IMG/VR virus record: IMGVR_UViG_3300028883_000041
Span: 1-64,000 of that record
Strand: one strand, 5' to 3'
Length of the DNA: 64,000 bases
Source: a virus
Shown here: one piece after another, positions 15,685-60,332 of the stretch
Numbering within the stretch: position 1 is the first letter of the stretch
How the letters are laid out: every line of letters begins with the position of its first letter
Made by a program: the position numbers and the translations under genes
The notes under the pieces: model-generated
What the model was told of the DNA's origin: nothing
Databases searched by the model: none
The model's input: only the letters and a program-made list of their open reading frames with translations

Positions 15685-15963
15685 TTATTTCGCCTTATTC
15701 TTGTATTTTATGAAATTTTCTGGGGTGGTGTAAAAGTTCGCACCCACTTTGATTAATTTTCCTTCTCCAACCAATTCATTGACAGATTTTGCAATATGAA
15801 ATTTATCAGCATAAGGATACTCTCTGGGAACGTTCATTATTCTCCCAAGGTCTTTTATTGACACAAAGTATTCAGTTGCCTCTAATTTTTCTAAAAGTCG
15901 GTCTTTGATTGCTTGGATATGTCTTTCAAATGTTGTTGCTACATCATCATCTTGTAGTGGCAT
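15685..15963 (-). CDS. Winged-helix protein downstream of PolB
   Basis: The start at 15963 overlaps the end of PolB by 17 nt and gives an N-terminus MPLQ, like that of the next winged-helix gene (MPLN). The 92-residue product has helices around KDLGRIMNV and HIAKSVNELVGEGKLIKV followed by a wing-like strand pair, fitting a winged helix. Its coupling to PolB suggests a regulator or accessory of replication. Confidence 0.6.
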   Translation of the reverse strand: MPLQDDDVATTFERHIQAIKDRLLEKLEATEYFVSIKDLGRIMNVPREYPYADKFHIAKSVNELVGEGKLIKVGANFYTTPENFIKYKNKAK

Positions 15964-18667
15964 TACCATCACCAAAATCACCTATTGATGTTTGTTTAAT
16001 TTCTTTCTTCGGCATAGCCATTTTGATTGGTAATATTAATTGACTATAGACACTATTTAAGATATTAATATATTCTATCGTGTCTATGTCTCTCATATCA
16101 GCCAATTCTATAGGCAATACATGTTTGATTTTTTTCTTCTTAGGTTTAATAGCATGGACATATTCTATTACTGAACCTTTTTTAAATAGTAAATTATCAC
16201 TGATAGGATATGGACTCTTTTGCTTATAAACTTCTAATAACTTTTTAGCTGCTCTTACTTGAGGAACGTTAGCCTTATAATCAGATAAAGTTCTTGATAA
16301 TGTAGTACCTATACTATAATCATCAAGAGTTCCAGACCTATTCATTATTGCTAACTCATAGCTCTTTCTTGATGCTTCCAGTTTGTTTATAAGATGAGGG
16401 ATGTCAGACAGAGTAGAGCAGTTATCTCGTATGATATCGGTCCATCTTTTGAATGCATCTTTGACTATACGTGGGGTATGTTTCTTTTTACCTACTAATC
16501 CTTTAATAATCTTGCCTTTACTACCATCTTTTTTTAATTCTACTACATAGTAATTCTTTTTAGCATGAAATACTATTACTATACCACGTTCTTCCACTTC
16601 TAAATCAACGTTGTAAGTATTACGTATATAATTCACTACCTCTTCATATGCTTCTTCTTTTAGTCTGGTTAGGAACACACTGTCAGTGTCACCTCCTATC
16701 ACCAGAGCACCTATCTCTTCAAACTTCTTCTTGATTGAGAGGGTAGTCTGTTTACCAGTAGCAGTTGTACATTCAGCTGATGGAGCACAGAAAAACGGAA
16801 ATCTATCAAAAGCATTCACACCATAGGATGCATTTATTACAACTTTAAGATATTGTTCTACTGCTTTATATCCTATGACATCATCTTTATGTTGTTTGAA
16901 ATAATACACTCTAACATCTTTAACGAACCCTACCATTGTACTAAAAGTACCATCATATCTGGTGCAGACATGATGAGATGGAACAATAGATTTAAGGTCT
17001 TTTGCAAACTTTAACTCCTTATCTATCTTTTCAATAGGAACACTAAGAGTTGGATATATCTTATTGTTTTTACATTCTGGATGACCACAGTTCATAGTAT
17101 CATAACTTAGATTATGATTGACTATCATAGTAGGATACAATGATGCTACGTCTGCTACTACCAGATTAAAATGTGTTCCCATGACTGGTTCAAGAACTAT
17201 AGCACCAGCAAACTTCTTACCAGTGACAGAGACAGAATGATAACCTCCTATTTGTTCCAGTTCATACTTGTTGATATTAGGCATCTTATAATAGACTAAC
17301 AACCTCCTCATCAAATTTAAGATGACAGATGCTACCTTAGACCTACAAGCATCTTCTACTGCTTTGGTTGCTATCCTCATGGTCATCATTATCAGTTGCA
17401 TTACAATTTCATTATCAAATGTACATAAATCTAATACAAGAGAGTTATCTTGAGCATTATAATAACACAATTCTTGAGTAGGTAGGTTTGTTATTCTCCC
17501 TTCATAATCATATTTTTGTTCATCAAGTAAAGACTTAGATACATCATTAAGACTGTTCCTATCATATTTTCCTTTGAAGGCATAGTTTTTTATAGAAGGA
17601 TTACTAAAAAATCTATAGAGGTCTATGAGATACTTATCAGACACTCCTTTATTCACTCTCTCATATGACCTCTCTTCATTTTCTACTATTGTTTTATAAC
17701 CCCATATCTTATTATTTTTGATATTAAGATAGTTCATTCTACTACATAGATATGGTATATCAAACTCATCTACATTGAACCCAACAATAAACTTCTGTGG
17801 CATACCAACAAGATACTTAACTGCTTCTTTAACAAGTTCTCTTTCGTTACTGAACTCTCTTATCATATGGTTTTCATGCCTTTCATCAAAGGAACTTGCT
17901 TTAGTATTTCTGGTCACATCATCCAGTGCAAAGGTTAGATGTATCATGTTTCCATCTCTATACCAACTGAGAGTGACAGAACTAATAGGTGCTACAGCTT
18001 CAAATGCATCTATAGCATCACGATAATTGAAATCACATTCTATATCTACAGCCAATATATGTTCTTTGAATTGAGGGAATGGTGTAGTAAAGACAGACAT
18101 CAACCAATCAAAAGCAGTCTTTGGCATCTTTCCCATATACTTTTCTATTTCTGGCATAACATAGATAGGATGTTTTTTAATAGCCTTCCAATCTACATCG
18201 AGTTTCATAGTCTCTAAATCATAGGGCATACCCATTGATAGATTGTTCTCATAACAATATACTTCGTGATATTTGACATGATTATTATATACAAATTTAG
18301 GGTCAATTAATTGGCTTAGACCATTACCTTCCTTAGTATTAGTAACATAATGAGGTTTTGTTACAATGACTTTAGTTAATTTGATTGGTTGTCTTGTTCG
18401 TGGATGTGTTAATTCTATCCTCTTACAATCAACTACTTTAGCACTGTTCCAAGTAGGTTTCCCATTTACCATTAGTGTGTATTTATCTGTTTGAACTTGA
18501 AAGATATTCATTATCTGTTTTTCTGTAAGAGTGGTATAAAAAAAAGGTAAGTGGTCTTCTTCATAGGGTTTTTCTATTATCTTTCCAGTTTCGTCATCAA
18601 AGAACCTAAGTATTTGACCACTTTTAGACTTCTCTTTTGGATACATGGTCGACATGAGCCATCTCAT
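15947..18667 (-). CDS. polB: Family B DNA polymerase with 3'-5' exonuclease
   Basis: This 906-residue enzyme should replicate the viral genome. The proofreading motifs are present: Exo I (DIECD near residue 210), Exo II (FNVDEFD) and Exo III (YYNAQD). So are the polymerase motifs: A (DVASLYP), B (KVVINASYG) and C (GGDTDS). In motif C the usual tyrosine before GDTDS is glycine, and motif B has alanine where serine is common; the catalytic aspartates are intact. The start at 18667 has AGGAG 9 nt upstream; a longer frame to 18724 overlaps the previous gene more. The length is normal to slightly long for archaeal PolB. It lies between small accessory genes and a methyltransferase. Confidence 0.95.
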   Translation of the reverse strand: MRWLMSTMYPKEKSKSGQILRFFDDETGKIIEKPYEEDHLPFFYTTLTEKQIMNIFQVQTDKYTLMVNGKPTWNSAKVVDCKRIELTHPRTRQPIKLTKVIVTKPHYVTNTKEGNGLSQLIDPKFVYNNHVKYHEVYCYENNLSMGMPYDLETMKLDVDWKAIKKHPIYVMPEIEKYMGKMPKTAFDWLMSVFTTPFPQFKEHILAVDIECDFNYRDAIDAFEAVAPISSVTLSWYRDGNMIHLTFALDDVTRNTKASSFDERHENHMIREFSNERELVKEAVKYLVGMPQKFIVGFNVDEFDIPYLCSRMNYLNIKNNKIWGYKTIVENEERSYERVNKGVSDKYLIDLYRFFSNPSIKNYAFKGKYDRNSLNDVSKSLLDEQKYDYEGRITNLPTQELCYYNAQDNSLVLDLCTFDNEIVMQLIMMTMRIATKAVEDACRSKVASVILNLMRRLLVYYKMPNINKYELEQIGGYHSVSVTGKKFAGAIVLEPVMGTHFNLVVADVASLYPTMIVNHNLSYDTMNCGHPECKNNKIYPTLSVPIEKIDKELKFAKDLKSIVPSHHVCTRYDGTFSTMVGFVKDVRVYYFKQHKDDVIGYKAVEQYLKVVINASYGVNAFDRFPFFCAPSAECTTATGKQTTLSIKKKFEEIGALVIGGDTDSVFLTRLKEEAYEEVVNYIRNTYNVDLEVEERGIVIVFHAKKNYYVVELKKDGSKGKIIKGLVGKKKHTPRIVKDAFKRWTDIIRDNCSTLSDIPHLINKLEASRKSYELAIMNRSGTLDDYSIGTTLSRTLSDYKANVPQVRAAKKLLEVYKQKSPYPISDNLLFKKGSVIEYVHAIKPKKKKIKHVLPIELADMRDIDTIEYINILNSVYSQLILPIKMAMPKKEIKQTSIGDFGDGNATTR

Positions 18668-18806
18668 TTCTAATCTCCTCTTGTTTCTCAAACTTATCAA
18701 AGGTAATTCTTTTGAGTCTCCCATTCTCTAATACATAGAGATTGTTTGTATAATCAGAGATATACAGTCCTTCTACTTCTGTCTCCCTAACACTAACAAA
18801 GCTCAT
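18624..18806 (-). CDS. Hypothetical protein, 60 residues
   Basis: ATG 18806 is preceded by GAGGAG at 7 nt. The product is a small alpha/beta protein with no recognised motif. It overlaps PolB by 44 nt and the zinc-ribbon gene by 14 nt, so it is embedded in a coupled replication operon. Confidence 0.55.
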   Translation of the reverse strand: MSFVSVRETEVEGLYISDYTNNLYVLENGRLKRITFDKFEKQEEIRNEMAHVDHVSKREV

Positions 18807-18942
18807 CACTATGCTCCTCTTTAGTTTGGGTTACATGACCGCATTTCATACATGTTATCTCTATAGTATAAGGGTCCTTCAGTCTTACTCTAAACTGTTT
18901 ACTTCCACATTCTGTACATGGTTTTATTTCTGGTTTTGACAT
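18793..18942 (-). CDS. Small zinc-ribbon protein, 49 residues
   Basis: The frame from ATG 18942 to TAG 18793 bridges the methyltransferase and the next gene, overlapping both. It has CTEC (residues 9-12) and CMKC (residues 31-34) with strand-like residues between, the layout of a TFIIS/TFIIB-type ribbon. A role near PolB is possible, but function is unknown. Confidence 0.65.
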   Translation of the reverse strand: MSKPEIKPCTECGSKQFRVRLKDPYTIEITCMKCGHVTQTKEEHSDELC

Positions 18943-19763
18943 TCTTTTATTCTCCTTTTAGTTGTGTTTATAGATGCATCACTGATATCACAGACATAGT
19001 AATTACATCCAAGTTCTTCTGCTACAACAGCTGTTGTTCCACCACCACAAAATGGGTCGTATACAGTCACTGGTTCTATCCCAAATTTAGGATGTGATTT
19101 GATACACCATTCTGGTAATTGAGGGGGAAACTCGGCTGGATTGTAACGTCTGAGGTTCTGACCATATTTTAAAATAGGTATAACCCACACATCTCCTACG
19201 TCTTTATATGCTCTATCAAACTTATCTATCATACGTTGGATTGCTGGTTTATATCTTTTGTCTTTTAGATATTCTGGTGTGAGTTCTTCACCTATATTTG
19301 CTCTATTAATGAGTGTCTTTCCTTTACTAAATAGGAATATCTTCTCATAGTATCTTGAAAACGATTTATCTGTCCTCATAGCATTGGTATGTTGTTTGTT
19401 TGGCATCACCCAAATGATTTCTTGAACGAATTTCCAACTACTATTAGCCACTATTTCCCTTACGACAAAATTCATATCTTCCATACTTTGTAGGGGTGAT
19501 TTTCTATCACCTTTTAAGTTCAAATACATCAAAGAAGGTTCGTTACAGATTTTGTCGGTGGGGTGTAGGCTATAGATTAATAGGTCCAACCAATGTTCTC
19601 TGGAAACATCATCTTTGTAACCAGTATATGGGACACCGATATTATAAGGAGGTGATGTTACTACGACATCAACTTTAGGATATCCATAATGTTCGGTGTA
19701 TCCGTATACAAAGTTATGAAATGATATTGCATCGTATTGTTTAACAATCATTTTATTGGTCAT
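18924..19763 (-). CDS. DNA amino-methyltransferase (N4/N6, beta class)
   Basis: The 279-residue enzyme should methylate an exocyclic amino group of cytosine or adenine in DNA using S-adenosylmethionine. The catalytic motif IV TSPPY is at residues 36-40 and the cofactor motif DPFCGGGTT is near the C-terminus. The order IV then I marks the beta class; the target-recognition region lies between. TSPPY is common in N4-cytosine enzymes but does not decide the base. The start at 19763 is about 27 nt from the TATA box, implying a leaderless message. No cognate nuclease is adjacent, so self-protection against host restriction is the likely role. Confidence 0.9.
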   Translation of the reverse strand: MTNKMIVKQYDAISFHNFVYGYTEHYGYPKVDVVVTSPPYNIGVPYTGYKDDVSREHWLDLLIYSLHPTDKICNEPSLMYLNLKGDRKSPLQSMEDMNFVVREIVANSSWKFVQEIIWVMPNKQHTNAMRTDKSFSRYYEKIFLFSKGKTLINRANIGEELTPEYLKDKRYKPAIQRMIDKFDRAYKDVGDVWVIPILKYGQNLRRYNPAEFPPQLPEWCIKSHPKFGIEPVTVYDPFCGGGTTAVVAEELGCNYYVCDISDASINTTKRRIKECQNQK

Positions 19764-19785
19764 ATAAGTTACATTATGTTTGACC

Positions 19786-19803
19786 ATATTTAAACCTTTT
19801 GAA
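19786..19803 (-). promoter_or_regulatory. BRE/TATA promoter for the methyltransferase-PolB operon
   Basis: The minus strand reads CAAAAGGTTTAAATATGG, centred about 27 nt upstream of the ATG at 19763. This favours that start over upstream ATGs, which lie within or before the promoter. Confidence 0.6.
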
Positions 19804-19839
19804 TGCTCGTGTATGGAAAGTGCTTCCAAAAATTTTTTG

Positions 19840-19869
19840 AAAAAACGAGAAGGCTGACCAGACCTTCTC
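19840..19869 (-). terminator. Hairpin terminator after the primase-helicase gene
   Basis: On the minus strand a 7-base-pair stem GAGAAGG with CCTTCTC is followed by G and six T. It lies about 100 nt after the stop at 19971 and just before the methyltransferase promoter. The rest of the gap 19764-19970 holds no convincing gene. Confidence 0.6.
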
Positions 19870-19970
19870 CGAGAAACAAAGAACCCAAACAAGGAGCAAC
19901 ACAATGAGTTCAGAAATGTATCTATACGAGCATATAATATTCACAATACAAATATTTAAAGGTTTCTATC

Positions 19971-22900
19971 CTATTGACCAGTGTCTTTAATGAACATTAA
20001 GTCATCTAATCTATCATGTTTGACCAGAGAAATGCCAAAGTATTCGAGTAGGTCTTTGGCTACCATGATTTCTTGAATAAACTTTTTCGGTTCAGCAACA
20101 CGTTCATTCCTATTCTTCTTAACTATGTTGTGTGCATTAGAAACAAGAAGATAATTATGTTTATCAAGATATTTGAGTAGTTTATTGAACCTATAGTCAA
20201 CAAGATAACCAAATTTCTTCCATACCTTACCTATTACAAGCATCTCTTCTTTAGTAATTAATTTATTAGTCTTTGCAATATGAGGCATAGGAACATCATC
20301 ATCCATCTTGATAGTCTTCATCACTTCATTATAACTCATACCCCAGTTATAAACAACACTGAAATCTTTAGCCATTGGGTCTTTGGCTCTACCTATTGTC
20401 TGATAGAATGTTTGATGAGCATTCATTATTTCTAATCTACCAGATAACTCTTCTATATCCATACCTACAAACATCCCTTGCTCTTGGTAGTAGTTTGCTA
20501 ACCAAAGAGATGAGTTCTTTGGAGGATTAGGAGGACAGATAGTTACCATCACTCTTTCCTCTTTAGCTACACCTATCGTTTCGTCAGACCTATAGTAGGT
20601 TACTGCTACTTGAGGTATCTCTTCCTTCTTTTTTAAATCCCACATCATATTGAATGTAAAAATATTAGACACAATCAACAACACATTTTGAGTTCCATGT
20701 TGCTTACAAACATTCTTTATGAACTGTTTTAAATCTTCTAAGTCATCATACTTACCAGTAGCTTTGGTTTTTGACAATAGAGTTCTGATATTTATTACCT
20801 TGTTAGATGGAACAATTAATTGTTTATCACAAGTATTTCGTGGGTCTCCTACATTGAACCTTTCAAAGTCTAACCCAAATACATCAGAAGGTTTAGCTAA
20901 AGGCATGGTAGCATCAGTAACTATGATTTGTTTTCCTCTGTTATGCATTTCAGTAACAAATCCAGTAACTTTTCTTATCTTAGGAGAGGTAACAAAACAA
21001 GCATTAATTTTTTTATCAATTGTTGGTGTGTTCTGTAACCACCATACATCAGACTGCAATAACTGTAGCATCTTAATGATATTAGGTAGAGGTTCATTGG
21101 TTCTCTTAACGAAACTCGATATAACAGATAGATAAGCAAAGAAGTTATCTCTGAATTCTTCAAGTTCTTCTGGACCATTCTTAAGTAATACATTCTCTAC
21201 CTTCTCACAATAAACTTTGTCTAATTCACCATCAAACTTTTTAGTCATAACAAACTTCTCATAATGAAGGCAAAACTTTTCTTTGATAAGTCTAAGCTTA
21301 TCTATAGTTTTCATTTGATTGGTATTAAAGCTGACATGAGTATTAGGATTAGGAGGTCCATCAAGTCTATTGAATTCTTCATGAAGATTTTGTATAAAGT
21401 TTCTTGAATTGATTGTGGTCTTGTTGTCATTAGCATCATAATAACTCTCATCATATACAGTTATAGCAAGAGGAGATGATTGAACAAGATTAGATATCTC
21501 ATCCATGAACACCACATCAAATGCATCAAAAATCATATTTAATAATGCTTTAGACTCTGGCTCATTATTTTTAGCAAGAGCAGACATTTTGTCATAGGTC
21601 ATGAACAATACATCATAGTCATATATCCTCTGCATCACAGTTTGGTAGGCACAATACCCTTGTTTCTGTTGATACTGTTGATATTGACTATCATCTGATT
21701 TCCAGATAGGCATAGGAGTTCCATCCTCTTCTCGATGTGGAAACACAAAAGTCTCTCTATAATAAGGACACTCTACCTTTTGACCAGTCTCTTTTGTGAC
21801 TATACAAGAAGGTTTAGTATGGAATGGCATATTCAACCACTCCACCTCTGGTGTAGGACCCCAGTTAGGTTCTTCTTTCTTCTTATTTTTAAGGTCAGTT
21901 ATCTGAAACCTAAGTTTAAGGCAAGAGTTTTTGTTTGAGGAAAGAACAGCACCATTAATCCTCTCTCCATACTGCTCGTAAATTATTCTCATTGCACTGC
22001 TGAATACTTCTTCTGCTATCCTATTTGTAGGAACTAAGACCAACGTACGTTTCTTCATATAGGTTGCAACTCGTATCAAAGTTGTTGTTAGACCAGCACG
22101 AGTAGTTTTGATTGCCTCAAAATGTTTGTGTGGTTGTTGTAACATCTGTGATACTCTATGCGTTATAACATCGAAGTCTCTTTCTTCTTGTGCTTCTGTT
22201 AGAGCTTGGACTATAACTGGTGACGGTTTCTTCCTCAAACAATAACTCCTCCCACACTTGGGTGCATCCTTTGCTGGGTCACAGAAATAAAAATCACTAT
22301 GAATGTCTTGCATCTTGGAACAAGACGGAGGTTTATCTGGCTCTTCTGGATTACCAAGATAAGCTCTTATACTTGTAAAGAGTTTGTTCTTATTTTGTGG
22401 TAGGTTATCTTCTTCATCATTAATTCTAAATCTAAAAAACATTGCCAAGTCGTCTGGAGAGTAGTTCTTATTATGAGAATAGTAATCATATTTCATTGAT
22501 GCTAAGTATCTTAATAGCACCACGTTCTTATGATGACCCCCAGCATGTAGAGCATTATAAATACATGGTGGTGTCTTCTCTGGGTCATTACTTGAGATGA
22601 GTTTAAACATTTCATCTACTTTCTTCTCTTGTTTTTCATCCAGTAAATCATGTGGTTCTGGACATGTAATTTTATAGTAAATTAATGGCTTCTTGAATTC
22701 TTTGATTGTACCTACTCTCTGAACTTTTCTTGACAATTCTTCTATGTCTTCTGTATCCATACTTCTTGTAATATAATCAATGAATTGGAACGGAGGAACT
22801 ACTATTGGTGCAACTTGTATGTTACCTAATTCTGTTTGTTTAATTGTTTCCTCTACATTATATGCACCATTTTGTTTAACAACTGGGACACAATAAAAGG

Positions 22901-23549
22901 TCTTATACCCAAACTTCTGGTATGCAGAATATGGCACCCTAAATATATGTCCTCCTCTCTTATATAACACTGTATCAATAATGATAAGGTATTCAACTGA
23001 TTTATATGTAAACTTTTTACATATCCCTTGGTGGCGTTTAGACTTCTTTCCCTCTTTATTCTTAGGGTAATAAAGGCTAAAGCCTTCATTCTTCTTAAAT
23101 AAGCCATTAACATTATCATCATCCCAGAGCACTGGTAGAAATACGAGTTTACTAACTGCTTTATTATATTTCTGTACTCTATACATTCCTTTACCAGAAA
23201 CATAATCATAGAAACTGATATCTGGATGGTTTTTATCCCACTCTTCCCAAAATTTCATGACTGCTGTCAGTATCATCTTTCTTTGTTGTTCTTTGGTGTT
23301 TAGTTGCTTAGCATAAGGGGTAAGTATCTTCACATCTGTATCAATAACAAACATGGTATGGTCTTTACCTTCTATTGTTCTAAACAAAGGAGTTAAAGGA
23401 TTAATAGCATTAAGGTCAAACTCAGTTTGCCACTTACCAATCTTTTCTCCTCCACCAGTAGCTCTTTCTGCTTTTGATATAGCATTAGCTCCTTTAACAA
23501 AGGGCTTGATAGCATTCCTCATCTTTAGAATTTTACTGTCTTCGGTCAC
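19971..23549 (-). CDS. Fused primase / PriL-like Fe-S / XPD-like helicase
   Basis: This 1192-residue protein should unwind and prime viral DNA. Residues about 66-205 carry archaeo-eukaryotic primase motifs: FVIDTD (D70, D72), SGKGMYR (118-124) and IIID (D192) with R204. Residues 327-437 resemble the C-terminal Fe-S domain of the large primase subunit PriL: PPC (C329), PPSC (C410), then C423, C432 and C437. Residues from about 470 form a superfamily 2 helicase. Between its motif I and motif II DE box (FMDEIS, 681-686) lie C543, C582, C594 and C633, the position of the XPD/DinG Fe-S cluster. TDATMP (878-883) and QTIGRAKDP (about 1049-1057) fit motifs III and VI. The P-loop is unusual (TRAGLTTT, no lysine). 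A GTG start lies about 28 nt from a TATA-like box. Confidence 0.85.
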   Translation of the reverse strand: MTEDSKILKMRNAIKPFVKGANAISKAERATGGGEKIGKWQTEFDLNAINPLTPLFRTIEGKDHTMFVIDTDVKILTPYAKQLNTKEQQRKMILTAVMKFWEEWDKNHPDISFYDYVSGKGMYRVQKYNKAVSKLVFLPVLWDDDNVNGLFKKNEGFSLYYPKNKEGKKSKRHQGICKKFTYKSVEYLIIIDTVLYKRGGHIFRVPYSAYQKFGYKTFYCVPVVKQNGAYNVEETIKQTELGNIQVAPIVVPPFQFIDYITRSMDTEDIEELSRKVQRVGTIKEFKKPLIYYKITCPEPHDLLDEKQEKKVDEMFKLISSNDPEKTPPCIYNALHAGGHHKNVVLLRYLASMKYDYYSHNKNYSPDDLAMFFRFRINDEEDNLPQNKNKLFTSIRAYLGNPEEPDKPPSCSKMQDIHSDFYFCDPAKDAPKCGRSYCLRKKPSPVIVQALTEAQEERDFDVITHRVSQMLQQPHKHFEAIKTTRAGLTTTLIRVATYMKKRTLVLVPTNRIAEEVFSSAMRIIYEQYGERINGAVLSSNKNSCLKLRFQITDLKNKKKEEPNWGPTPEVEWLNMPFHTKPSCIVTKETGQKVECPYYRETFVFPHREEDGTPMPIWKSDDSQYQQYQQKQGYCAYQTVMQRIYDYDVLFMTYDKMSALAKNNEPESKALLNMIFDAFDVVFMDEISNLVQSSPLAITVYDESYYDANDNKTTINSRNFIQNLHEEFNRLDGPPNPNTHVSFNTNQMKTIDKLRLIKEKFCLHYEKFVMTKKFDGELDKVYCEKVENVLLKNGPEELEEFRDNFFAYLSVISSFVKRTNEPLPNIIKMLQLLQSDVWWLQNTPTIDKKINACFVTSPKIRKVTGFVTEMHNRGKQIIVTDATMPLAKPSDVFGLDFERFNVGDPRNTCDKQLIVPSNKVINIRTLLSKTKATGKYDDLEDLKQFIKNVCKQHGTQNVLLIVSNIFTFNMMWDLKKKEEIPQVAVTYYRSDETIGVAKEERVMVTICPPNPPKNSSLWLANYYQEQGMFVGMDIEELSGRLEIMNAHQTFYQTIGRAKDPMAKDFSVVYNWGMSYNEVMKTIKMDDDVPMPHIAKTNKLITKEEMLVIGKVWKKFGYLVDYRFNKLLKYLDKHNYLLVSNAHNIVKKNRNERVAEPKKFIQEIMVAKDLLEYFGISLVKHDRLDDLMFIKDTGQ

Positions 23550-23628: not shown

Positions 23629-23646
23629 TTCGAAAGGTTTAAATAC
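23629..23646 (+). promoter_or_regulatory. BRE/TATA promoter for the RPA-like operon
   Basis: TTCGAAAGGTTTAAATAC repeats almost exactly the promoters at 6185 and 11200. Transcription should start near 23667, about 100 nt before the main start codon, so this message has a long leader. Confidence 0.65.
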
Positions 23647-23682
23647 CATCAAGAAAATAGTAATTTACTAGCTTGAATTAGG

Positions 23683-23766
23683 ATGCTTTCAATACTGAAA
23701 GTTAAGGAGGATTTCCTCCTTCCTCCTTTAAGTTATAGAAAACAAGTAAAAAAAGTAAGTGATTGA
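23683..23766 (+). CDS. Possible 27-residue leader peptide
   Basis: An ATG 16 nt after the predicted transcription start opens a 27-codon frame. It ends in TGA, one base before the ATG of the RPA-like gene. The same junction, GATTGA-A-ATG, joins the RPA-like gene to the next gene, which suggests translational coupling. The product is basic (9 K/R) with a hydrophobic middle. It overlaps two hairpins. It could equally be a chance frame in a structured leader. Confidence 0.35.
   Translation: MLSILKVKEDFLLPPLSYRKQVKKVSD
23686..23728 (+). promoter_or_regulatory. Structured leader with alternative hairpins
   Basis: Two hairpins follow one another: CTTTCA with TGAAAG (23686-23701, 4-base loop) and AAGGAGGA (23704-23711) with TCCTCCTT (23714-23721). 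A second TCCTCCTT at 23721-23728 can compete for the same AAGGAGGA, which itself looks like a Shine-Dalgarno sequence. This would allow alternative RNA structures. Confidence 0.5.
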
Positions 23767-23767
23767 A

Positions 23768-25204
23768 ATGGTTGATGAACTATTTTTAATGAAAAAACTG
23801 AAAGAAGTCGAATTTGAAGACTTTGATGTATCTGTGGATGATTATCTACAGAAGCAAACTGACCTTGATAAAATCAAGGAGTATTACAAAGACGATGCCA
23901 ACATGGATGCTCAGCTTACTGAGGTAGCAAAGGAAATATTTGATGATAAGATATATCAGATTACTACAGTAAGAGGAGCTATCAATGCAGTGCTCGGAAA
24001 AGTAAGAGAACAAGTCTATGCCAAACTAAGCGAAAATGCTTTAGAGGAAAAGATTGAAGAAGGAGATTATATCATAGAAACTGGTACAATCTTAGGAGCT
24101 TATGATTTTCCAATCCGTAAGGATGATGGGTCTACCTTTACTAAGAACTTTATGGTTCTATCTACTGATGATGGGATAATAGAGATTACATGTATTGGTG
24201 ATAAGATTGGTCCAAGAAAACGTGCTGTTCCTATACCCTTTATGAAAAGAGCATCTTATGTTATTAATCCTAAGAAATTCACCAGAGCTAATGGTGTTCA
24301 AGATGTGGATTATGCAGCGATGAGAGTAGGTGAGGTTAGTGATGAGTTTGATATCATAACTGAACACTTAGCAGCTGCTGAGAATACAGAAGGTGGTCTG
24401 TGGGATATTGATAGAATTGTTGATGAGTTCCCACCAGAAGGTCAACTCAAGAGAGGAGATTGGATTTGGTTTAAAGGGATAATCAGAAACATTGAACCTT
24501 TCCCAATATTTGAAGGAAGAGAGATGACTGGTCAATACCATCATTTAGTTACATATGATAAATATAATGAACCTACTTATGCTTTCAATTTATCTGCAAG
24601 AGGTAAGTTCTTTGATGATGAGGCTTTCTATCCTACTATAAGATTACAGCCAACTGAGATTGGATATACACAAGTAGAATGGGATGGTGTTGAAGAGTTA
24701 GTAACAGCATTAACAGAAGCTCAGAATGATATGGACCCTTCAGACCAATTCAAAACTCTTGATAACGAGATTACTGATAGAGTGTTTTATGCTCTTGTAA
24801 AAGTAGCAAAGATTGAACAACGTAAAGGTCAAAGCAGACAAGAAGGTAGAGAAGGAGAAACAGTAGATAGGTTCTTCATTAATCTAAATGCAGTATATGT
24901 CAGAATAACTGATGAGATTATTCCATGGAAACCTCAAACCAATGAGGAAGAAGAGGAAGAAGAAGAGAAACCAGCTAAAGCTCCAGCTAAGAAATCTCCT
25001 CCTAAAAAGAAACCAGCGACACCAGCTAAAGCAACAGCATGGAAAGCACAAGCAGTAAAGCAAATTACTGAATGGAGAAAAGCTATTCCAGATGCAGATT
25101 TTGAAACACTCGTAGACAACGATGCTTTCGATGATGATGTGTTCAAAGGCGTAGACGAAGCAGCCCTTAAAACTGTCTTTGAAGATTTAATAAAGGATGA
25201 TTGA
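23768..25204 (+). CDS. Putative RPA-like single-stranded DNA-binding protein
   Basis: The 478-residue product has a helical N-terminus and beta-rich central regions (about residues 95-180 and 225-390) that look like OB-folds. An acidic run of glutamates and a linker rich in lysine, proline and alanine follow (about residues 393-425), then a C-terminal helical domain. It lies directly before a RecA-like ATPase and opposite the primase-helicase, the usual neighbours of a viral single-strand binding protein. No zinc motif of RPA is seen. ATG 23768 is preferred over the GTG at 23759. Fold assignment is inference from pattern and context. Confidence 0.55.
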   Translation: MVDELFLMKKLKEVEFEDFDVSVDDYLQKQTDLDKIKEYYKDDANMDAQLTEVAKEIFDDKIYQITTVRGAINAVLGKVREQVYAKLSENALEEKIEEGDYIIETGTILGAYDFPIRKDDGSTFTKNFMVLSTDDGIIEITCIGDKIGPRKRAVPIPFMKRASYVINPKKFTRANGVQDVDYAAMRVGEVSDEFDIITEHLAAAENTEGGLWDIDRIVDEFPPEGQLKRGDWIWFKGIIRNIEPFPIFEGREMTGQYHHLVTYDKYNEPTYAFNLSARGKFFDDEAFYPTIRLQPTEIGYTQVEWDGVEELVTALTEAQNDMDPSDQFKTLDNEITDRVFYALVKVAKIEQRKGQSRQEGREGETVDRFFINLNAVYVRITDEIIPWKPQTNEEEEEEEEKPAKAPAKKSPPKKKPATPAKATAWKAQAVKQITEWRKAIPDADFETLVDNDAFDDDVFKGVDEAALKTVFEDLIKDD

Positions 25205-25205
25205 A

Positions 25206-26051
25206 ATGTCAAGAAGAGCAAGAACAGTAAGTAATATAACTTTGAAGGATACTACAGCCAATAGTATCTATACTCCATATGTTAAAGGTATAGTGTATGG
25301 TGGAACTAACTTAGGCAAGACTTATTTGGTTCTTAACTCTTATTTCAATACTGAAAAGAAGAAGAAAGTATTATTCATTAATACTGACCAACCAGAGAAC
25401 TTTCTCAAGAACTTTAATCATTTGACAGATGCACAAAAACTGCGAGTAGTACAACCACATGAAGAGATGAAGATAGGACATACATTAGATGATGTAAAGA
25501 ATATCTCACCTCTCATCAAACAAATTTTAACTCCTCCTATCTCAAAAGAGATACATGATGGAACCATAGGTCTCATTGTTATTGATACTATTGATGTTAT
25601 TCAAGAGGCATATGAGAACAATGCTATGGACAACGATTTTAGTGGTACTCCAGAAATGTTTGTTAAAGGAAGAGGTAGAGCACAGATGGAACGAGAGTTC
25701 CTCAAACCTCTTATCAAACTTCCATGTAACTTCATTGCTACTTCTGCATTTGACATTGTTTACAAAGAAGGTAAAGGTCCTCTAAAAGATATTGCTACTA
25801 AAGAAGTAGATGGTAAAGATATCCATATTCATAAGCCAAGACTTAACGCTAAGATGTGGAAACACTTTACAAATATCATGGAACTCAGAGACATTTACCA
25901 ATTCGATGAGAAAAAGAGTCAGATTAATGGATACTTCATTAAATCAAAAAGAGACCAAGGGTTATATACCTATAATGTATTAAAAGGAGATAAAGAGTCT
26001 GGAAAAGGTCCAAGCTATGCTAAGTACATGGCTTATGACAGAGGACTCTAA
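25206..26051 (+). CDS. RecA/Sak4-like recombination ATPase
   Basis: The 281-residue product is a RecA-fold ATPase with Walker A GGTNLGKT near residue 35 and Walker B LIVIDTID near residue 122. Its size and P-loop resemble the phage Sak4/AAA_24 group of single-strand annealing or RadA-like proteins, which work with a single-strand binding protein. It starts one base after the RPA-like stop, so the two are probably made in proportion. No N-terminal helix-hairpin-helix of true RadA is present. Confidence 0.8.
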   Translation: MSRRARTVSNITLKDTTANSIYTPYVKGIVYGGTNLGKTYLVLNSYFNTEKKKKVLFINTDQPENFLKNFNHLTDAQKLRVVQPHEEMKIGHTLDDVKNISPLIKQILTPPISKEIHDGTIGLIVIDTIDVIQEAYENNAMDNDFSGTPEMFVKGRGRAQMEREFLKPLIKLPCNFIATSAFDIVYKEGKGPLKDIATKEVDGKDIHIHKPRLNAKMWKHFTNIMELRDIYQFDEKKSQINGYFIKSKRDQGLYTYNVLKGDKESGKGPSYAKYMAYDRGL

Positions 26052-26889: not shown

Positions 26890-27711
26890 TTAGATTAATC
26901 TATCTTTACCTCTTTTTCCTCTTTCCATTTTTTTAGGAAAGTTAGTATTTAGTTCAAGCCAGTATTTGTTTCTGTCTTCAGAGGTAACTTTCTTTCTGTT
27001 CTTTTTCTTGATTATCATAGGTAATACCCAAAAACCAGTGAGACCTAATGTCACTGCGATGAGTAGAATAGCAAGAGGGTTGTTGATAATCCATGCAATG
27101 ATACCGCTGTCATAGTTAAGTAATGATAAAGCAGTAATTAAAATAGATGAGATGTAACCACCAGCAAGTATCCCTTTCTTACCAGAACTGAGAGAACCTT
27201 TGAAAGTTTCCACTACACTGGAACTTTTTTCTGCTACTCTCATAATAAGCATAGTTTGTTGTTCAATCATACTTTCTAAATCAACAGTCCTTTGAGCAAG
27301 TTGAGCAACAGATGTTTCAAGAGTATATATTCTTGCTCTCATAATATTAACAGAGACCTTATCTACATGTGCTTCGATTGATGATAGTAAGGTAGGTAGA
27401 TTGATTGCTTTCTTGGAGAAATGAGCCTTAACTCCTTCAGCCATCTGTTCTATTTCTTGATGACCAGAGATAGTTATAATGTTAGCATCTGGGTCCATCT
27501 CTAAGATTTTTTCAGTTGCTTCTTCTCCACCCATGGTTGGCATAACTAAATCCATGAGTACTAAGTCTGGCATATTTCTCCTATATACCTTTACAGCATC
27601 CTCTCCACTGAACACTTGGATGATATCATATCTATCTTTGAGTTTATCTCTAAGTCCATTAGAGTATATCTCATTATCATCCACAATCATAATAGTACTC
27701 TTGTATTCCAT
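26890..27711 (-). CDS. Membrane-anchored response-regulator receiver protein
   Basis: Residues 1-115 are a CheY-like receiver with the full phosphorylation set: D11 and D12, phosphoacceptor D54 in LMDLVMP, S82 in TISG and K100. A coiled coil (about residues 125-165), two hydrophobic helices (about 178-198 and 203-233) and a basic C-terminal tail follow. It has no DNA-binding output domain and no histidine kinase beside it. A cytoplasmic receiver tethered to the membrane could respond to, or titrate, host phosphorelay signalling. It has its own TATA box and ends flush against the convergent membrane-protein gene. Confidence 0.85.
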   Translation of the reverse strand: MEYKSTIMIVDDNEIYSNGLRDKLKDRYDIIQVFSGEDAVKVYRRNMPDLVLMDLVMPTMGGEEATEKILEMDPDANIITISGHQEIEQMAEGVKAHFSKKAINLPTLLSSIEAHVDKVSVNIMRARIYTLETSVAQLAQRTVDLESMIEQQTMLIMRVAEKSSSVVETFKGSLSSGKKGILAGGYISSILITALSLLNYDSGIIAWIINNPLAILLIAVTLGLTGFWVLPMIIKKKNRKKVTSEDRNKYWLELNTNFPKKMERGKRGKDRLI

Positions 27712-30632: not shown

Positions 30633-30873
30633 TCTTAATCTCCTCTATTATTTCTTCTAATATTCCATCTTCTACTTCATAATGGAAGGCAATTCGATTG
30701 ATTAATTTAACAAAGAACTCATCCTTTGGATACCGTCCAACGTCATAAAACCATTCTTCTTCATATCTATCTCCTCTAAATATATCATTTAGAACTGCTT
30801 TTGTTAATGGATGAAATGATTTATCATTATTATAATCATAATATCCATCTCTAAATTTGTCTTTTTTACTCAT
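30622..30873 (-). CDS. Hypothetical protein, 83 residues
   Basis: A small charged, mainly helical protein with an acidic end. It overlaps the helicase gene by 8 nt and the next gene by 11 nt, so it is coupled to the helicase. Function unknown. Confidence 0.6.
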   Translation of the reverse strand: MSKKDKFRDGYYDYNNDKSFHPLTKAVLNDIFRGDRYEEEWFYDVGRYPKDEFFVKLINRIAFHYEVEDGILEEIIEEIKNAE

Positions 30874-32410
30874 TGAAATTCACCTCTTCTATTATTTCTA
30901 ATTCTGGTATTCGTTCTAAGAAGGTTCCGTCCAGAATTACATCGAACCCTTCTGCTCTCCAAGCTTTCACTCGTTCTACAGAGTGCTCCCATAAATATTC
31001 ACAGTTGTTTGCGTAGTCTATGAATATAGCATTATTCTTATCAGCAGATGTTCTGATTAAACGACCCAATGTCTGGATGCTTCTGGTCTTACTCTTCCAT
31101 GTACCAGCCAATACCATTGCACCTAAGTTAGGAAAGTCAAACCCTTCTCCTACTAATTGGACCGTGCATATCATGATATCTATCTCATCAGTATTCATCC
31201 ACTTATCAAACATCTCTTCTCTGTCTGGATGGTTAGCATCTACACCTACAGCTCTACCCATAGTTTCTTCATCTAAGCTCATCATGGCTTCCAGCATTTT
31301 GATATGTTTTACCCTATCAGTAAGCACTAAAACTTTCTTACCTTTTAACATCCATTTGGCAGCTTCTGTTACTATGAGTGAGTTTCTATGGTCATTATAA
31401 ACAATATAGTCTTCTACTATCTCATTATACTTCTTGTTTCTTGGATAAGACCTCTGTCCTACTGGTCTAAATATCACTGTTGCTTCGGTTGCTCTACCCA
31501 TCTCTACCAAGTCTTTCTGTGTTATTTTTCCTACTACTGGACCAAGATATCCAAGATAGATTATGTCAGTATTATCAGACCTCATATTTACTGTTCCAGA
31601 TAGACCTATTCTATAGTATGCATTAACAGCATCTAATATCTCTCTGGACTGCTTTGTTGAGGCATGATGACATTCATCATAGATGACAGTACCCACATCT
31701 CTCAAAAACAGTCTACAAAGCTCATACTCCTCTTGTTTTTTAGAATTAGTCTTATAGTATATGTTATGGGTATAACTTCTCGTAGCGACCATAAAAACAG
31801 CCTTATTTTTGATTTGGTAAACCCTTGGCATATCAGTTTCTTGCATATCAAAATGGTTCTTCATTCTGGCAACCCATTGTTTTTCTAAGGTGGCGTTAGG
31901 CACGACAATAAGAGTTTTAGTTTTGAATAAATTAATCAGAAACATGGCAAGTTCTGTCTTACCTCCACCAGTACCAACATCTACTATACAACGACCATCA
32001 TACTCAATGATTTCATCAACTACAGCATCTTGAAAATCAAAGAGGTTAATATCATTATATGTTTCTATTTCTTCATACTCTATTGGTGTTATAAAGTTGC
32101 CTTCAACCTCACTATCTGGATATAGACCTAAGACCAGATACCATAATCCAGCTGGAAAAGTCAGTCTCCACTTATCAAGCAGATGAATTCTTCCATCCCA
32201 ATCAAGCCACTCTCTTTTCTTATCAAGTAAATCGAGTTCTTCTTTTCTGGTCTTGGCTCTTGACATCTTATGAGTAATCTCACTAAGTCTGTAATCTCTT
32301 ACCCTTTCTTTTTCTGGATGCTCGTATGACATAACAGAACGTAGTCTTGATATCTGTTCTTTTGTAGCATCTCTCAATTCTGCATGTATGTTACCTATTA
32401 TTATTTTCAA
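30866..32410 (-). CDS. XPB/RadD-like superfamily 2 DNA helicase
   Basis: The 514-residue enzyme should translocate on double-stranded DNA using ATP. After an N-terminal domain of about 120 residues come Walker A GTGGGKT (146-152), motif II DECH (245-248), motif III GLSGTV and, in the second lobe, motif VI QTLGRLIRTS. This set fits XPB/RAD25 and RadD-type helicases of archaea and phages. It lies in one leftward unit with zinc-ribbon and AbrB-like genes, near the Cas4-like nuclease, suggesting a role in recombination-dependent replication or end processing. Confidence 0.88.
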   Translation of the reverse strand: MKIIIGNIHAELRDATKEQISRLRSVMSYEHPEKERVRDYRLSEITHKMSRAKTRKEELDLLDKKREWLDWDGRIHLLDKWRLTFPAGLWYLVLGLYPDSEVEGNFITPIEYEEIETYNDINLFDFQDAVVDEIIEYDGRCIVDVGTGGGKTELAMFLINLFKTKTLIVVPNATLEKQWVARMKNHFDMQETDMPRVYQIKNKAVFMVATRSYTHNIYYKTNSKKQEEYELCRLFLRDVGTVIYDECHHASTKQSREILDAVNAYYRIGLSGTVNMRSDNTDIIYLGYLGPVVGKITQKDLVEMGRATEATVIFRPVGQRSYPRNKKYNEIVEDYIVYNDHRNSLIVTEAAKWMLKGKKVLVLTDRVKHIKMLEAMMSLDEETMGRAVGVDANHPDREEMFDKWMNTDEIDIMICTVQLVGEGFDFPNLGAMVLAGTWKSKTRSIQTLGRLIRTSADKNNAIFIDYANNCEYLWEHSVERVKAWRAEGFDVILDGTFLERIPELEIIEEVNFNE

Positions 32411-56952: not shown

Positions 56953-57303
56953 TTATTGTTTGTCTTTAGGCACAAGTTTATCTTCGATATCTTGTTTATC
57001 AAATTCAGTTACATCTTCAAAGTTGTTATTTGCTGAGTAGTGTTTAGGTAACAATCCTATGAAATCGTCATCCCATACCACATCTTGAGCATGACCTACA
57101 ACACGAGTAAAACCGAGAACTACTTGTTCTCTTATCCATTCACCTTGATGTAAATCAAACTGTCTTTGTAACTTTATATGTTGAACACCATTAAGGTCTT
57201 CTATACCAACAAATTGCATGAGTTTTACAATTCTTTGGTCTAAACCAACATCATCCAACTCTTCAGTTTCTTCTTCTAACTCTTCAAAATCATCCTCTGT
57301 CAT
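56953..57303 (-). CDS. Hypothetical acidic protein, 116 residues
   Basis: An acidic N-terminus (about residues 3-20) is followed by a small alpha/beta core. It overlaps the glycosyltransferase gene by 14 nt and lies before the neck-like gene. It may be a connector protein; no family recognised. Confidence 0.55.
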   Translation of the reverse strand: MTEDDFEELEEETEELDDVGLDQRIVKLMQFVGIEDLNGVQHIKLQRQFDLHQGEWIREQVVLGFTRVVGHAQDVVWDDDFIGLLPKHYSANNNFEDVTEFDKQDIEDKLVPKDKQ

Positions 57304-58417
57304 CAGTAATCACATCCGCAAGTTTCTTGGCTGCTGATTTCCAAGTCCATTTCTTGACATCTTTTAGCCCTTGAACTGACCTCTTCTTTCTTCCTTCAAC
57401 ATCATCAACAACTTTTCTCATTATATTACGAATATTCTTTATTGAAGGTTTAGCCCAATAAAGCCCTTGGTTTCTATCGTAAGGACCTCTACCATCAGTG
57501 ATATCCATTGTTTCTGGTTTAATGATGTAGGAGTTCTTAGTATTCATATATTCCAATTGACCACCAAACTTTTGTGTGATACATGGAACACCACAAGCCA
57601 TAGATTGAATATAGGGTAATCCCCAACTCTCACCTTTGCTTGGTAATATGAACGCATTAGCAGAGTTATATAATCTTCTCATATTAGGTTCAGTTAGCAT
57701 CTGACCATTGATTACAATTTTTGGAGGGTTCTTATTCTTGAATTGAAAGGTTCTGGTTTTGATAGCATTAGTTATTCCTAACATAGTTGAGAAATTATTA
57801 TCCATACCATATGTTTTTAACATTAACACTACTTTATCATCTCCAGTAAATTCTTTAAGATAAGCATCTACAAGTTCTTCAAACCCTTTTCGTTTAATCC
57901 ACTGACCTACAGCCAAAAATACGAAGTCATCACCAAAGTCAAATAATTTGTCTTTATCTGGATAGAATATAGAAGTATCTATACCATGAGGAACTATATG
58001 AATTGGTCTGGCATCTGGACCTTTTTCTGTTATGGCTCTTTCTATAGAGTCTTTACAAAACTTAGTATTTGTTATGAACTCATCATAAAGGGTGAGCTCT
58101 TTCTTCCATAGAGGAGGTAAATCAAGTAATTCCCAAACAAACATGAGTATGTTTCTATTGTGGTCTGGAGGAGACCTATCAAATACTACTGGAGTTCCAT
58201 ATCTTATATAAGGAACTGTTTTATCAGAAGTCTTAGCAAACATATCTTGGAATATCGCTGCTTGGTCTGCTGGTAATCTAATTATTAAATCATCCATTTT
58301 TCTTTCTTGAAGATGAACATCTAATCCTTCTTCATGAAGACCTAACACCATTTTTCTGGCTGCATAAGCATAACCAGAAGGAGATAATACTGTTGTTTCT
58401 ATTCTTACATCAACCAT
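57290..58417 (-). CDS. GT-B glycosyltransferase (GT4-like)
   Basis: The 375-residue enzyme should transfer a sugar from a nucleotide sugar. The second lobe carries the family signature SKGESWGLPYIQSMACGVP (about residues 262-280), with the two glutamate/acidic positions around the nucleotide site. It has no signal peptide. With its neighbour it probably glycosylates virion proteins, perhaps the neighbouring tail or capsid proteins. Confidence 0.85.
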   Translation of the reverse strand: MVDVRIETTVLSPSGYAYAARKMVLGLHEEGLDVHLQERKMDDLIIRLPADQAAIFQDMFAKTSDKTVPYIRYGTPVVFDRSPPDHNRNILMFVWELLDLPPLWKKELTLYDEFITNTKFCKDSIERAITEKGPDARPIHIVPHGIDTSIFYPDKDKLFDFGDDFVFLAVGQWIKRKGFEELVDAYLKEFTGDDKVVLMLKTYGMDNNFSTMLGITNAIKTRTFQFKNKNPPKIVINGQMLTEPNMRRLYNSANAFILPSKGESWGLPYIQSMACGVPCITQKFGGQLEYMNTKNSYIIKPETMDITDGRGPYDRNQGLYWAKPSIKNIRNIMRKVVDDVEGRKKRSVQGLKDVKKWTWKSAAKKLADVITDDRG

Positions 58418-59749
58418 TTACATCACCAACTCTATATTGGTATTAACTTTTTCAAATAAGTCAATCCACATCTTATTTACTACCGTCCAATCATAATGAC
58501 TGACTGCCCAATCACGAGCATTTTTACCATGTAGTTTTCGTAGTTCTTCATCTTTCCAATATTTCTGGAAAGCTTGAGCCATCTTCTTAACATCTATCCA
58601 AGCCTTTCTAACTCCACATCTTTCCATATAAGCAGTTACATAAGGAACAGCAATTCCTCTTTGTTCTTCTTTAGGAACAACTTCTTCATTATCACCAAGA
58701 AGTAAAAACTCTTCTGTGGTTGTATAATTGGTTGCTACTGTTGGAAGACCACAAGCCATGCCTTCTACTATAGGAATTCCAAATCCTTCTCCACCAGTTG
58801 ATAGAGCATGAACGTCAAAACAATTATATAACAACGATAAATCTTGTGGGGGTATCCCTTCTAAGAAATTATATTTTTTTCTGGATTGATTTGATGCTGG
58901 AGTAATGATAACGTTCTCTCCTATTCCTCTACATTCAATCTGCTCTAAGAAGAAATAATCGTGGTTAGCATCCCCTATATATAATGGGTCTTTAGCATCT
59001 AAATGAAGATAGAGATAACAAGTTTCTTTCTTCAACTTTTTCTCTTCTTTACTTCCAGCATTCATAAACATCCTAAATGCTTCAAGTAATCTCATATGAT
59101 GTTTTCGTTTATTCAATCTGGCTACGCAACCTATAATGAACATATCTTTAGGGTCTGTTTTAAACTTCATACCATATTCACCAAAGAATGCTTGTCTTGC
59201 TGCTAATTTGTTTATAGGACTAAATATAGATGTATTTATACCATGGGGTACATATTCTGCATCAATTTTAAGTTGTTCTTTAGTAAGTTTTTGACCATAT
59301 TTACTCATTGCTATTGGAACATCAACAGCCATTAGAACTGACTCTATCATACTGTTGATTGGGTCTCCATCAAGAGGATAATATAACATCCAAAAAGGTC
59401 TTGGTTGTCTTGCTAATACATCAACCATATGAGCATCCCCTTGAGTAAAGAGAACATCTGGAGCTATTTCATGAAATACGTCTTGATAACTATCCTTACC
59501 AAACATAGCATTTCCTCTCACTCCATGAACTTTATAGTTAAATCCAGAAATTGGAGGATTGCCTCTTGTTTGCCATCCTAAATAATGAGTATCCCAATTG
59601 AAGAACTTAGATACTGTATTAGCTATAGTTCCACATTGTATAGCAAACCCAGTAGGATAGTAAGGGCTATCAGAAGCAAAAAGTATAGTTGGTCTTCTTC
59701 TATTCAACTTAATTTCGGTTTTTGTCTCTATATCTACTTTTTTTGACAT
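58418..59749 (-). CDS. GT-B glycosyltransferase (GT4-like), second copy
   Basis: The 443-residue enzyme has the same fold, with motif TGGEGFGIPIVEGMACGLP near residues 316-334 and an N-terminal segment DSPYYPTGFA typical of the acceptor-side lobe. It abuts the first glycosyltransferase with no gap. The two differ well beyond recent duplication, so they may act in sequence on one glycan. Confidence 0.85.
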   Translation of the reverse strand: MSKKVDIETKTEIKLNRRRPTILFASDSPYYPTGFAIQCGTIANTVSKFFNWDTHYLGWQTRGNPPISGFNYKVHGVRGNAMFGKDSYQDVFHEIAPDVLFTQGDAHMVDVLARQPRPFWMLYYPLDGDPINSMIESVLMAVDVPIAMSKYGQKLTKEQLKIDAEYVPHGINTSIFSPINKLAARQAFFGEYGMKFKTDPKDMFIIGCVARLNKRKHHMRLLEAFRMFMNAGSKEEKKLKKETCYLYLHLDAKDPLYIGDANHDYFFLEQIECRGIGENVIITPASNQSRKKYNFLEGIPPQDLSLLYNCFDVHALSTGGEGFGIPIVEGMACGLPTVATNYTTTEEFLLLGDNEEVVPKEEQRGIAVPYVTAYMERCGVRKAWIDVKKMAQAFQKYWKDEELRKLHGKNARDWAVSHYDWTVVNKMWIDLFEKVNTNIELVM

Positions 59750-59793
59750 GTATATATATAAACACCTAATCTTATTAAATCTTTTGATGGCTT

Positions 59794-60330
59794 CTAACTC
59801 ATTGGCTTTGTTGGGTCAGTCTCACCAGTCTCTGAATAAGGCTTTCTAACAATCTTTAATAAAGTATAAACTTTCTGACCAAATGAACCGTATTTTGTTT
59901 CGTTTAGCATTATATCATATTCGTACCTTGTATAATTGGTATCAATAGGAAAAATGATTATGTCACCAACTGCAAAGTTATCGTGTTCCCAGCCATAAGT
60001 CCATAACCGATGAGTATAACGTTGAACTAAACCAGCTGGTGTCACATAATCACCTACTCCACTTCTTCCAGTAGGAGGTATTTGCTCTACGTAAGCTTTT
60101 ACTTTTCGTTCAGATGATGTCCCCTCAGTAAAGATAAATCCAGACCCATTACATACAGAACAAGTAGAATTAGGACGACCATATAAACTATTCCAACAAG
60201 TACATTTAGTAGCACTTTTTTTAGACCTATGAATGACATCTTGTCCTACATTAGTTAAGATATGTCTCATATAATAGTCATCAATAATAGGAACATGAGG
60301 TGTTCCCATAGTCCATTGTCTAAATGCCAT
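59794..60330 (-). CDS. Putative head-closure protein with zinc knuckle
   Basis: ATG 60330, just after the upstream stop, is preferred over a longer overlapping frame. The 178-residue protein has a zinc-like motif C-x-C-x11-C-x2-C-x-G-x-G (about residues 43-62) and a beta-rich C-terminal domain. Small cysteine-knuckle proteins of this form occur next to adaptor genes in phages. A head-closure or stopper role is inferred from its place. Confidence 0.55.
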   Translation of the reverse strand: MAFRQWTMGTPHVPIIDDYYMRHILTNVGQDVIHRSKKSATKCTCWNSLYGRPNSTCSVCNGSGFIFTEGTSSERKVKAYVEQIPPTGRSGVGDYVTPAGLVQRYTHRLWTYGWEHDNFAVGDIIIFPIDTNYTRYEYDIMLNETKYGSFGQKVYTLLKIVRKPYSETGETDPTKPMS

Positions 60331-60332
60331 AG

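Follow-up and report, generated by a model that had tools for sequence, protein, structure and literature searches.

Can a single polypeptide provide a virus with both the primase and the motor of a replication fork? This question is raised by a gene in the window, by which we mean the whole 64,000-nucleotide stretch analyzed here, bases 1-64000 of the 85,587-bp IMG/VR virus record IMGVR_UViG_3300028883_000041. The gene (19971..23549, minus strand, with a GTG start at 23549 and the stop at 19971) is an uninterrupted open reading frame of 1192 codons with no internal stops, and a preliminary description, made from the sequence alone, had read its product as a primase, a PriL-like Fe-S domain and an XPD-like helicase fused in one chain. 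Our analysis supports this three-part architecture, namely, an archaeo-eukaryotic primase (AEP) domain, followed by a cysteine domain that resembles the C-terminal domain of PriL (PriL-CTD) and then by an Fe-S helicase of superfamily 2 (SF2). The helicase is recognized by its fold and the primase by motifs and weak matches, whereas the PriL part of the original reading has no significant profile match. We put at roughly 0.6 the probability that a lineage of head-tailed viruses, probably of archaea, uses the fused protein as its replicative primase-helicase, in the manner of phage T7 gp4.

A divergent protein with eight full-length relatives

When compared with Pfam, PHROGs, NCBIfam and PDB sequences, the 1192-residue protein produced sub-threshold matches only, the sensible one among them being DEAD_2, the XPD helicase family, over residues 528-688 (15.4 bits, below the Pfam gathering score of 21; the best DEAD_2 match among the homologs had E=0.0053). 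Because the fused protein is so divergent, its relatives were gathered stepwise, first with a degenerate nucleotide pattern of the P-loop and then with real alignments and patterns taken from other motifs. In this manner, eight full-length homologs were recovered from other IMG/VR contigs, with 23-51% identity to the window copy, the same domain order and no internal stops; a last scan, for DE-box and TYDK patterns, brought up these eight records and no others. The homologs begin with MTE or MTG in register with the window protein, which supports the GTG start. Exact-peptide scans with a single fused protein or with the family B DNA polymerase (PolB) encoded nearby yielded no relatives, and, at the sensitivity available, none was detected by tblastn in phage and plasmid collections or by the search of genome contigs. 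The fused gene can serve as a marker for a virus lineage to which no match was found when public collections of phages and plasmids were searched.

Given these eight homologs, we reject the possibility that the fusion is an artefact of assembly or gene calling. The window copy does come from a single metagenomic contig and has no library match, but the homologs reside on other contigs, are full-length and intact, and show the same order of domains, so the chance of such an artefact is vanishingly small, and the single 1192-residue chain of the preliminary description stands. Across the nine full-length proteins, 86 of the 1192 positions are invariant and yet 7 of 18 cysteines (C329, C410, C432, C543, C582, C594 and C633) are among them; with so few invariant positions overall, this pattern is beyond chance. 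PDB sequence profiles gave no trustworthy match to the fused protein; the top one, to a helical stretch of SAMD9, was judged spurious, and the sub-threshold Pfam matches to RPN5_C, DM10 and DUF354, each seen in one member only, were attributed to chance.

The XPD/DinG-like helicase

The helicase part (residues 460-1110; 20220..22172, on the minus strand as are all parts of this gene) is strongly supported by its predicted fold. The preliminary description had suggested that the two halves of the protein be modelled separately. The AlphaFold (AF2) model of residues 452-1192 is good (predicted local distance difference test score, pLDDT, 85; predicted template modelling score, pTM, 0.82), and, when this model was used as a Foldseek query, ranks 1-18 were all XPD or DinG structures, the best being 3crv (E=1.2e-14). 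A C-terminal half outside superfamily 2 had been named in advance as the result that would overturn the preliminary description; this half is, on the evidence of the modelled fold, of the XPD type. Four cysteines, C543, C582, C594 and C633 (21651..21923), lie between motifs I and II in all nine proteins, which is the arrangement found in XPD and DinG and the one claimed for them at the outset; indeed, these cysteines and those at 329, 410, 423, 432 and 437 are exactly where they had been placed.

The remaining SF2 signatures are, for the most part, equally well preserved. Walker B, or motif II (DEIS in the window copy, residues 683-686; 21492..21503), reads DE(I/V)S across the nine proteins, with D683, E684 and S686 invariant, in keeping with the DExx form. 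In motif III (TDATMP, residues 878-883; 20901..20918), TDAT and the proline are found in 9/9, and, in motif VI (QTIGRAKD, residues 1050-1057; 20379..20402), so are Q, I, G, R1054 and K1056, such that the QxxGR signature appears as QxIGR throughout; R987 is invariant as well. An hhalign comparison with a single DinG was not significant. The C-terminal region that follows (residues 1111-1192; 19974..20219) is modelled as helices plus a beta hairpin and is, possibly, a winged helix, as weakly suggested by the match of one homolog, L053, to the E2F_TDP winged-helix family (E=0.009).

The primase domain

The primase assignment draws good but indirect support from motifs and from convergent weak matches. 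In the putative AEP (PriS-like) catalytic domain, at approximately residues 54-260 (22770..23390), motif I reads VIDTD, which agrees with the hhhDhD/E consensus, and both of its aspartates (D70-x-D72; 23334..23342) are present in 9/9; motif III, of the hD/E form, contributes D192 (22974..22976), which is conserved in eight of the nine proteins. The catalytic aspartates noted in the preliminary description are therefore preserved in the family. In motif II (SGKGMYR, residues 118-124; 23178..23198), the position of the catalytic histidine is occupied by tyrosine in six proteins, namely, the window copy and five homologs, and by histidine in three. Relaxed versions of motif II are known among the PrimPol-PV1 primases (PMC5862659). 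The position of R204 (22938..22940), with arginine in 8/9 and lysine in 1/9, is aligned with R231, the essential motif IV arginine of PolpTN2, by hhalign, in a register that is itself non-significant. The motif II tyrosine pairs with tyrosine six residues after R204, and the motif II histidine pairs with asparagine or histidine there, although this pairing rests on few lineages; strong covariation of the positions matching motif II and motif IV +6 has been described in PrimPol-PV1 (Kazlauskas et al., PMC5862659).

The AlphaFold model of the other half, residues 1-462, is only fair (pLDDT 72, best across the AEP part). The coherent top PDB matches retrieved with it by Foldseek are AEPs (CAPP and Prim-PolC), all of them weak (best E=0.07, TMt 0.37). 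Independently of the Foldseek result, an NCBIfam profile search with homolog L143 pointed to the CAPP family (E=0.0026), so that CAPP, of Marinitoga, is both the best structural and the best profile lead for this domain, the matches being weak in each case; the matched CAPP structures, unlike the viral protein, have no helicase domain. The top matches of a structure search of BFVD, none of them significant, include several proteins annotated as viral primases or replication proteins, and no above-cut-off match to PriS (Pfam PF01896) was present in the nine records.

Between AEP motifs II and III, five homologs (L051, L053, L054, L063 and L064) carry a zinc-type motif, C..HxC...C, which is lost in the window copy and in its nearest relative, L055; a metal site has apparently been gained or lost inside one family. 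The motif resembles the AEP zinc element and counts in favour of the assignment; zinc is reported close to the active site in almost every AEP, bound in P. furiosus by a set of three cysteines and one histidine (PMC4434180).

A cysteine domain resembling PriL-CTD

Between the primase and the helicase lies a predicted helical domain (residues 300-445; 22215..22652) with cysteines 329, 410, 423 and 432 and arginine 347. Its identity as a PriL-CTD, which is the least secure part of the assignment because the profile tests were all non-significant, is suggested at the level of motifs, by the spacing of the cysteines and one arginine. C329, C410 and C432 are present in 9/9, and a fourth cysteine occurs in all nine proteins in a variable place, at 423 or, in some homologs, three residues ahead of C432. 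Thus, the cysteine set of the preliminary description holds for its three invariant members, whereas C423 is replaceable and C437, which had also been included, is dispensable and not conserved (proline in four homologs). The 81 residues that separate C329 from C410 conform to the PriL pattern of four cysteines, the first pair about 80 apart, and equal the spacing between Cys336 and Cys417 of yeast PriL (PMC2852410). R347, at Cys+18 (arginine in 7/9, lysine in one), lies close to where an initiation-site arginine would be expected, given that R355 of yeast PriL is found at Cys+19 (PMC5700102). Furthermore, the last two cysteines of the viral domain are located on a short variable linker, as are the last two ligands in archaeal PriL-CTDs (PMC2852410). 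With a limit of E<=10, the window record gave no match to PriL (PF04104), and PriL was absent from the Foldseek matches of the whole N-terminal model (residues 1-462).

The cysteines might bind zinc rather than an Fe-S cluster, at one or both sites. The identity of the ligand cannot be read from the sequence, the PriL-like set (C410/C423/C432) is compact, and the loss of the zinc-type motif of the AEP domain in the window copy indicates that metal sites turn over in this family. We nevertheless consider zinc distinctly improbable: the helicase cysteines are placed where XPD and DinG carry Fe-S, within an XPD fold, C329 and C410 are as far apart as their counterparts in yeast PriL, and PolpTN2, which has a similar set of cysteines, was light brown on purification (PMC3973330).

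A proposed one-chain primosome with an unusual P-loop

The activities of the fused protein, its polarity, its clusters and its use at the fork, as we infer them, would be as follows. The XPD-like part would translocate 5' to 3' on single-stranded DNA (ssDNA), along the lagging-strand template; this is the polarity of XPD and DinG. The PriS/PriL-like part of the same chain would lay primers, and the neighbouring PolB would extend them. The result would be a one-chain primosome comparable to phage T7 gp4 or the herpesvirus helicase-primase (UL5/UL8/UL52), in which the motor is an Fe-S SF2 helicase. What is shared with these systems is the proposed mode of action, a motor on the lagging-strand template that carries its own primase; the folds of T7 gp4 are unrelated (TOPRIM and SF4), and the herpesvirus helicase belongs to SF1 and is a separate subunit.

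Several observations weigh against such a replicative primase-helicase. The canonical Walker A lysine is replaced by L, V or F in 9/9, and the second arginine of XPD motif VI is absent, its position not being conserved in the nine proteins. The profile searches for the PriS, PriL and XPD families that the preliminary description had proposed returned no significant match, and the N-terminal model is, as noted, only fair, with a best Foldseek E=0.07. A separate XPB-like helicase, encoded by the window virus and several relatives, could be what drives the fork; its P-loop is normal in the window copy. Finally, the nine records are linear and may be incomplete, so there may be another replicative helicase.

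The lysine replacement had been overlooked in the preliminary description. The deviant Walker A loop, K481-TTRAG-L487-TT (residues 481-489; 22083..22109), follows the pattern K..TR.G.TT instead of the GK[ST] of XPD and DinG, and no other Walker A was found in any of the nine chains. In the model, K481 closes the beta strand 476-481 and a helix begins at 487, so that L487 occupies the expected lysine site; in an HMMER alignment with a DEAD-box helicase, too, L487 falls opposite the lysine. K481, six residues upstream of that site, and R484 are both present in 9/9, and T488/T489 are invariant. The peculiar loop does not stem from search bias, given that only one homolog was found via the P-loop pattern and the others via other motifs. 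The same layout, K-x-x-R-x-G-x-[ST], is seen in the P-loop of the lambda terminase subunit gpA (KSARVGYSK, residues 76-84), where the lysine is displaced to the start of the loop, with an arginine at +3 and Gly-hydrophobic-Ser/Thr thereafter. Lambda terminase is a packaging motor from another protein family, and the likeness is limited to the motif. By analogy with the displaced lysine of the terminase, K481, possibly together with R484, would assume the phosphate-binding role of the missing lysine.

Because the P-loop lysine is missing in every member, homology by itself does not allow helicase activity to be assumed. The main rival to our interpretation is that the XPD-like half is a pseudo-helicase, which would bind ssDNA and, perhaps, a nucleotide but would not hydrolyze ATP, and would serve the primase as a DNA-tracking or fork-junction clamp, leaving the unwinding to the separate XPB-like helicase or to a host MCM. 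The replacement of the canonical lysine in 9/9 without a second Walker A in the chain, the replaced second arginine of motif VI and the neighbouring XPB-like helicase with an intact P-loop are all compatible with an inactive ATPase. By contrast, D683/E684, T488/T489, TDAT, R987 and Q1050/R1054 are invariant down to 23% identity, which is unlikely for a dead site, and K481 and R484, in the layout known from lambda gpA, are found in 9/9. Apart from the P-loop lysine, the ATPase motifs are invariant, which points to selection for nucleotide hydrolysis. With the rest of the catalytic residues thus preserved, an enzyme that is active by means of a relocated lysine appears likelier than a dead one, and we regard a pseudo-helicase as unlikely. 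The loss of the Walker A lysine throughout a family that keeps the other ATPase motifs amounts to a natural test of whether the P-loop lysine can be moved.

A more specific version of the one-chain primosome can be proposed tentatively, as a conjecture that we rate somewhat below an even chance: the XPD-fold Fe-S motor would hydrolyze nucleoside triphosphates via a relocated P-loop lysine, lambda-terminase-like and of independent origin in SF2, and a PriL-type and an XPD-type cluster would be present in one chain, possibly communicating through DNA.

Relationship to known replication proteins

Perhaps the closest precedent for the N-terminal half is PolpTN2, the fused PriS-PriL of the Thermococcus nautili plasmid pTN2, a member of the PrimPol-PV1 supergroup, in which, as proposed for the viral protein, an AEP domain and a PriL-like Fe-S domain are combined in a single chain. 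The last two cysteines are 9 apart in both proteins, and the relaxed motif II and the arginine aligned, in a non-significant register, with R231 of motif IV may be further points of resemblance. PolpTN2, however, ends in a winged helix and lacks a helicase (PMC3973330, PMC5862659), which is found only in the viral protein, and an hhalign comparison with PolpTN2 orthologs gave a probability below 1%, that is, no significant sequence relation. From XPD and DinG, in turn, the viral protein differs in the lack of the Walker A lysine, the altered motif VI, the fused primase and the sub-threshold DEAD_2 score.

Primases and helicases are united in the replication proteins of other mobile elements too, as in pRN1 ORF904 (SF3), All3500 (SF2-like), PrimQH (DUF927/VirE) and GP55 of the lactococcal phage 1706. 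The helicases fused to AEPs in mobile elements belong to SF3, RepA/DnaB, AAA+, MCM or UL9-like SF2 (PMC5862659, PMC12205980, PMC4158269), and the literature also describes fusions to SF1 and the helicase-free PriS-PriL fusion. Such fusions being common, it is the combination of a PriL-type initiation domain with an XPD-type Fe-S helicase that is of interest; in the open-access literature, we found no description of a PriL-CTD-like domain joined to an XPD-like Fe-S helicase, and this protein may represent a hitherto undescribed type of one-piece primosome. The role of the PriL Fe-S cluster in priming is contested (PMC5700102). A single tractable polypeptide would make testable both the relevance of this cluster and the ability of an XPD-like 5'-3' motor to serve as a fork helicase.

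Genomic neighbourhood, virus and host

PolB (15947..18724, minus strand) adjoins the primase-helicase gene in seven of the eight relatives, often with a methyltransferase gene between the two, as in the window (N6/N4 DNA methyltransferase, 18924..19904, minus strand); in the eighth, G007, none of these neighbours was present in the stretch examined. On the other side of the primase-helicase gene, a divergent conserved neighbour of 481 amino acids (23759..25204, plus strand), putatively ssDNA-binding, was detected by tblastn in two relatives and has no family match; it is followed by a conserved RecA-like ATPase gene (25197..26051, plus strand; Pfam AAA_24, sub-threshold, E=9.5e-6). The separate XPB/UvsW-like SF2 helicase (30866..32410, minus strand) matches phrog_16 (E=5e-60) and ResIII and has a canonical GGGKT P-loop. 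This helicase, the RecA-like ATPase and a RecB-like nuclease are encoded near the primase-helicase in several relatives. No family match to MCM, DnaB or PriS was obtained in the nine records.

These neighbours are relevant to another alternative, namely, that the protein is active as a PrimPol-helicase but serves mainly to melt the origin and make the first primers, in recombination-dependent replication or in repriming at lesions, rather than as a processive primosome at the fork. The XPD/DinG relatives act chiefly in repair or at junctions and are not known as fork motors, and the neighbours include RecA-like, RecB-like nuclease and UvsW/XPB-like genes. Conversely, the gene occurs with PolB in 7/8 relatives, and the records searched gave no match to another primase or replicative helicase family, so this role, too, seems improbable as the principal one compared with that of a replicative primase-helicase at the fork.

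The window record encodes TerL, a contractile-tail sheath and a baseplate, and, of the eight relatives, six have a TerL homolog and four the sheath. The nearest curated family of PolB is a DNA polymerase I group, which we take to be archaeal, and TATA-like elements precede 6 of 34 gene starts versus about one expected (a post hoc count). Given this affinity of PolB and the TATA-like elements, the host is likely to be an archaeon.

The divergent intergenic region upstream of the primase (23636-23721) contains a TATA-like palindrome, GGTTTAAATACC, and an inverted repeat, AAGGAGGATTTCCTCCTT, and is a possible promoter, regulatory or origin site. A gene for a CheY-like receiver domain (PF00072, 5e-16) with predicted membrane segments (window 26890-27711, minus strand) is kept beside the primase in several of these viruses. 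In one related virus, PolB (L020:4046-7675, minus strand) contains an apparent intein inside motif C (YGD/TDS), an insert that is missing in the window PolB. By eye, L020:1-1206 and L086:5158-6063, from two related viruses, resemble topoisomerase VI subunit A (Spo11-like), and L086:6630-8009, on a related viral contig, resembles a TnpB-like open reading frame. Beside the structural genes of the window, the region 57290-62971 encodes two glycosyltransferases, a methyltransferase and a sulfotransferase-like protein, a gene set that suggests modification of virion or host-surface glycans.

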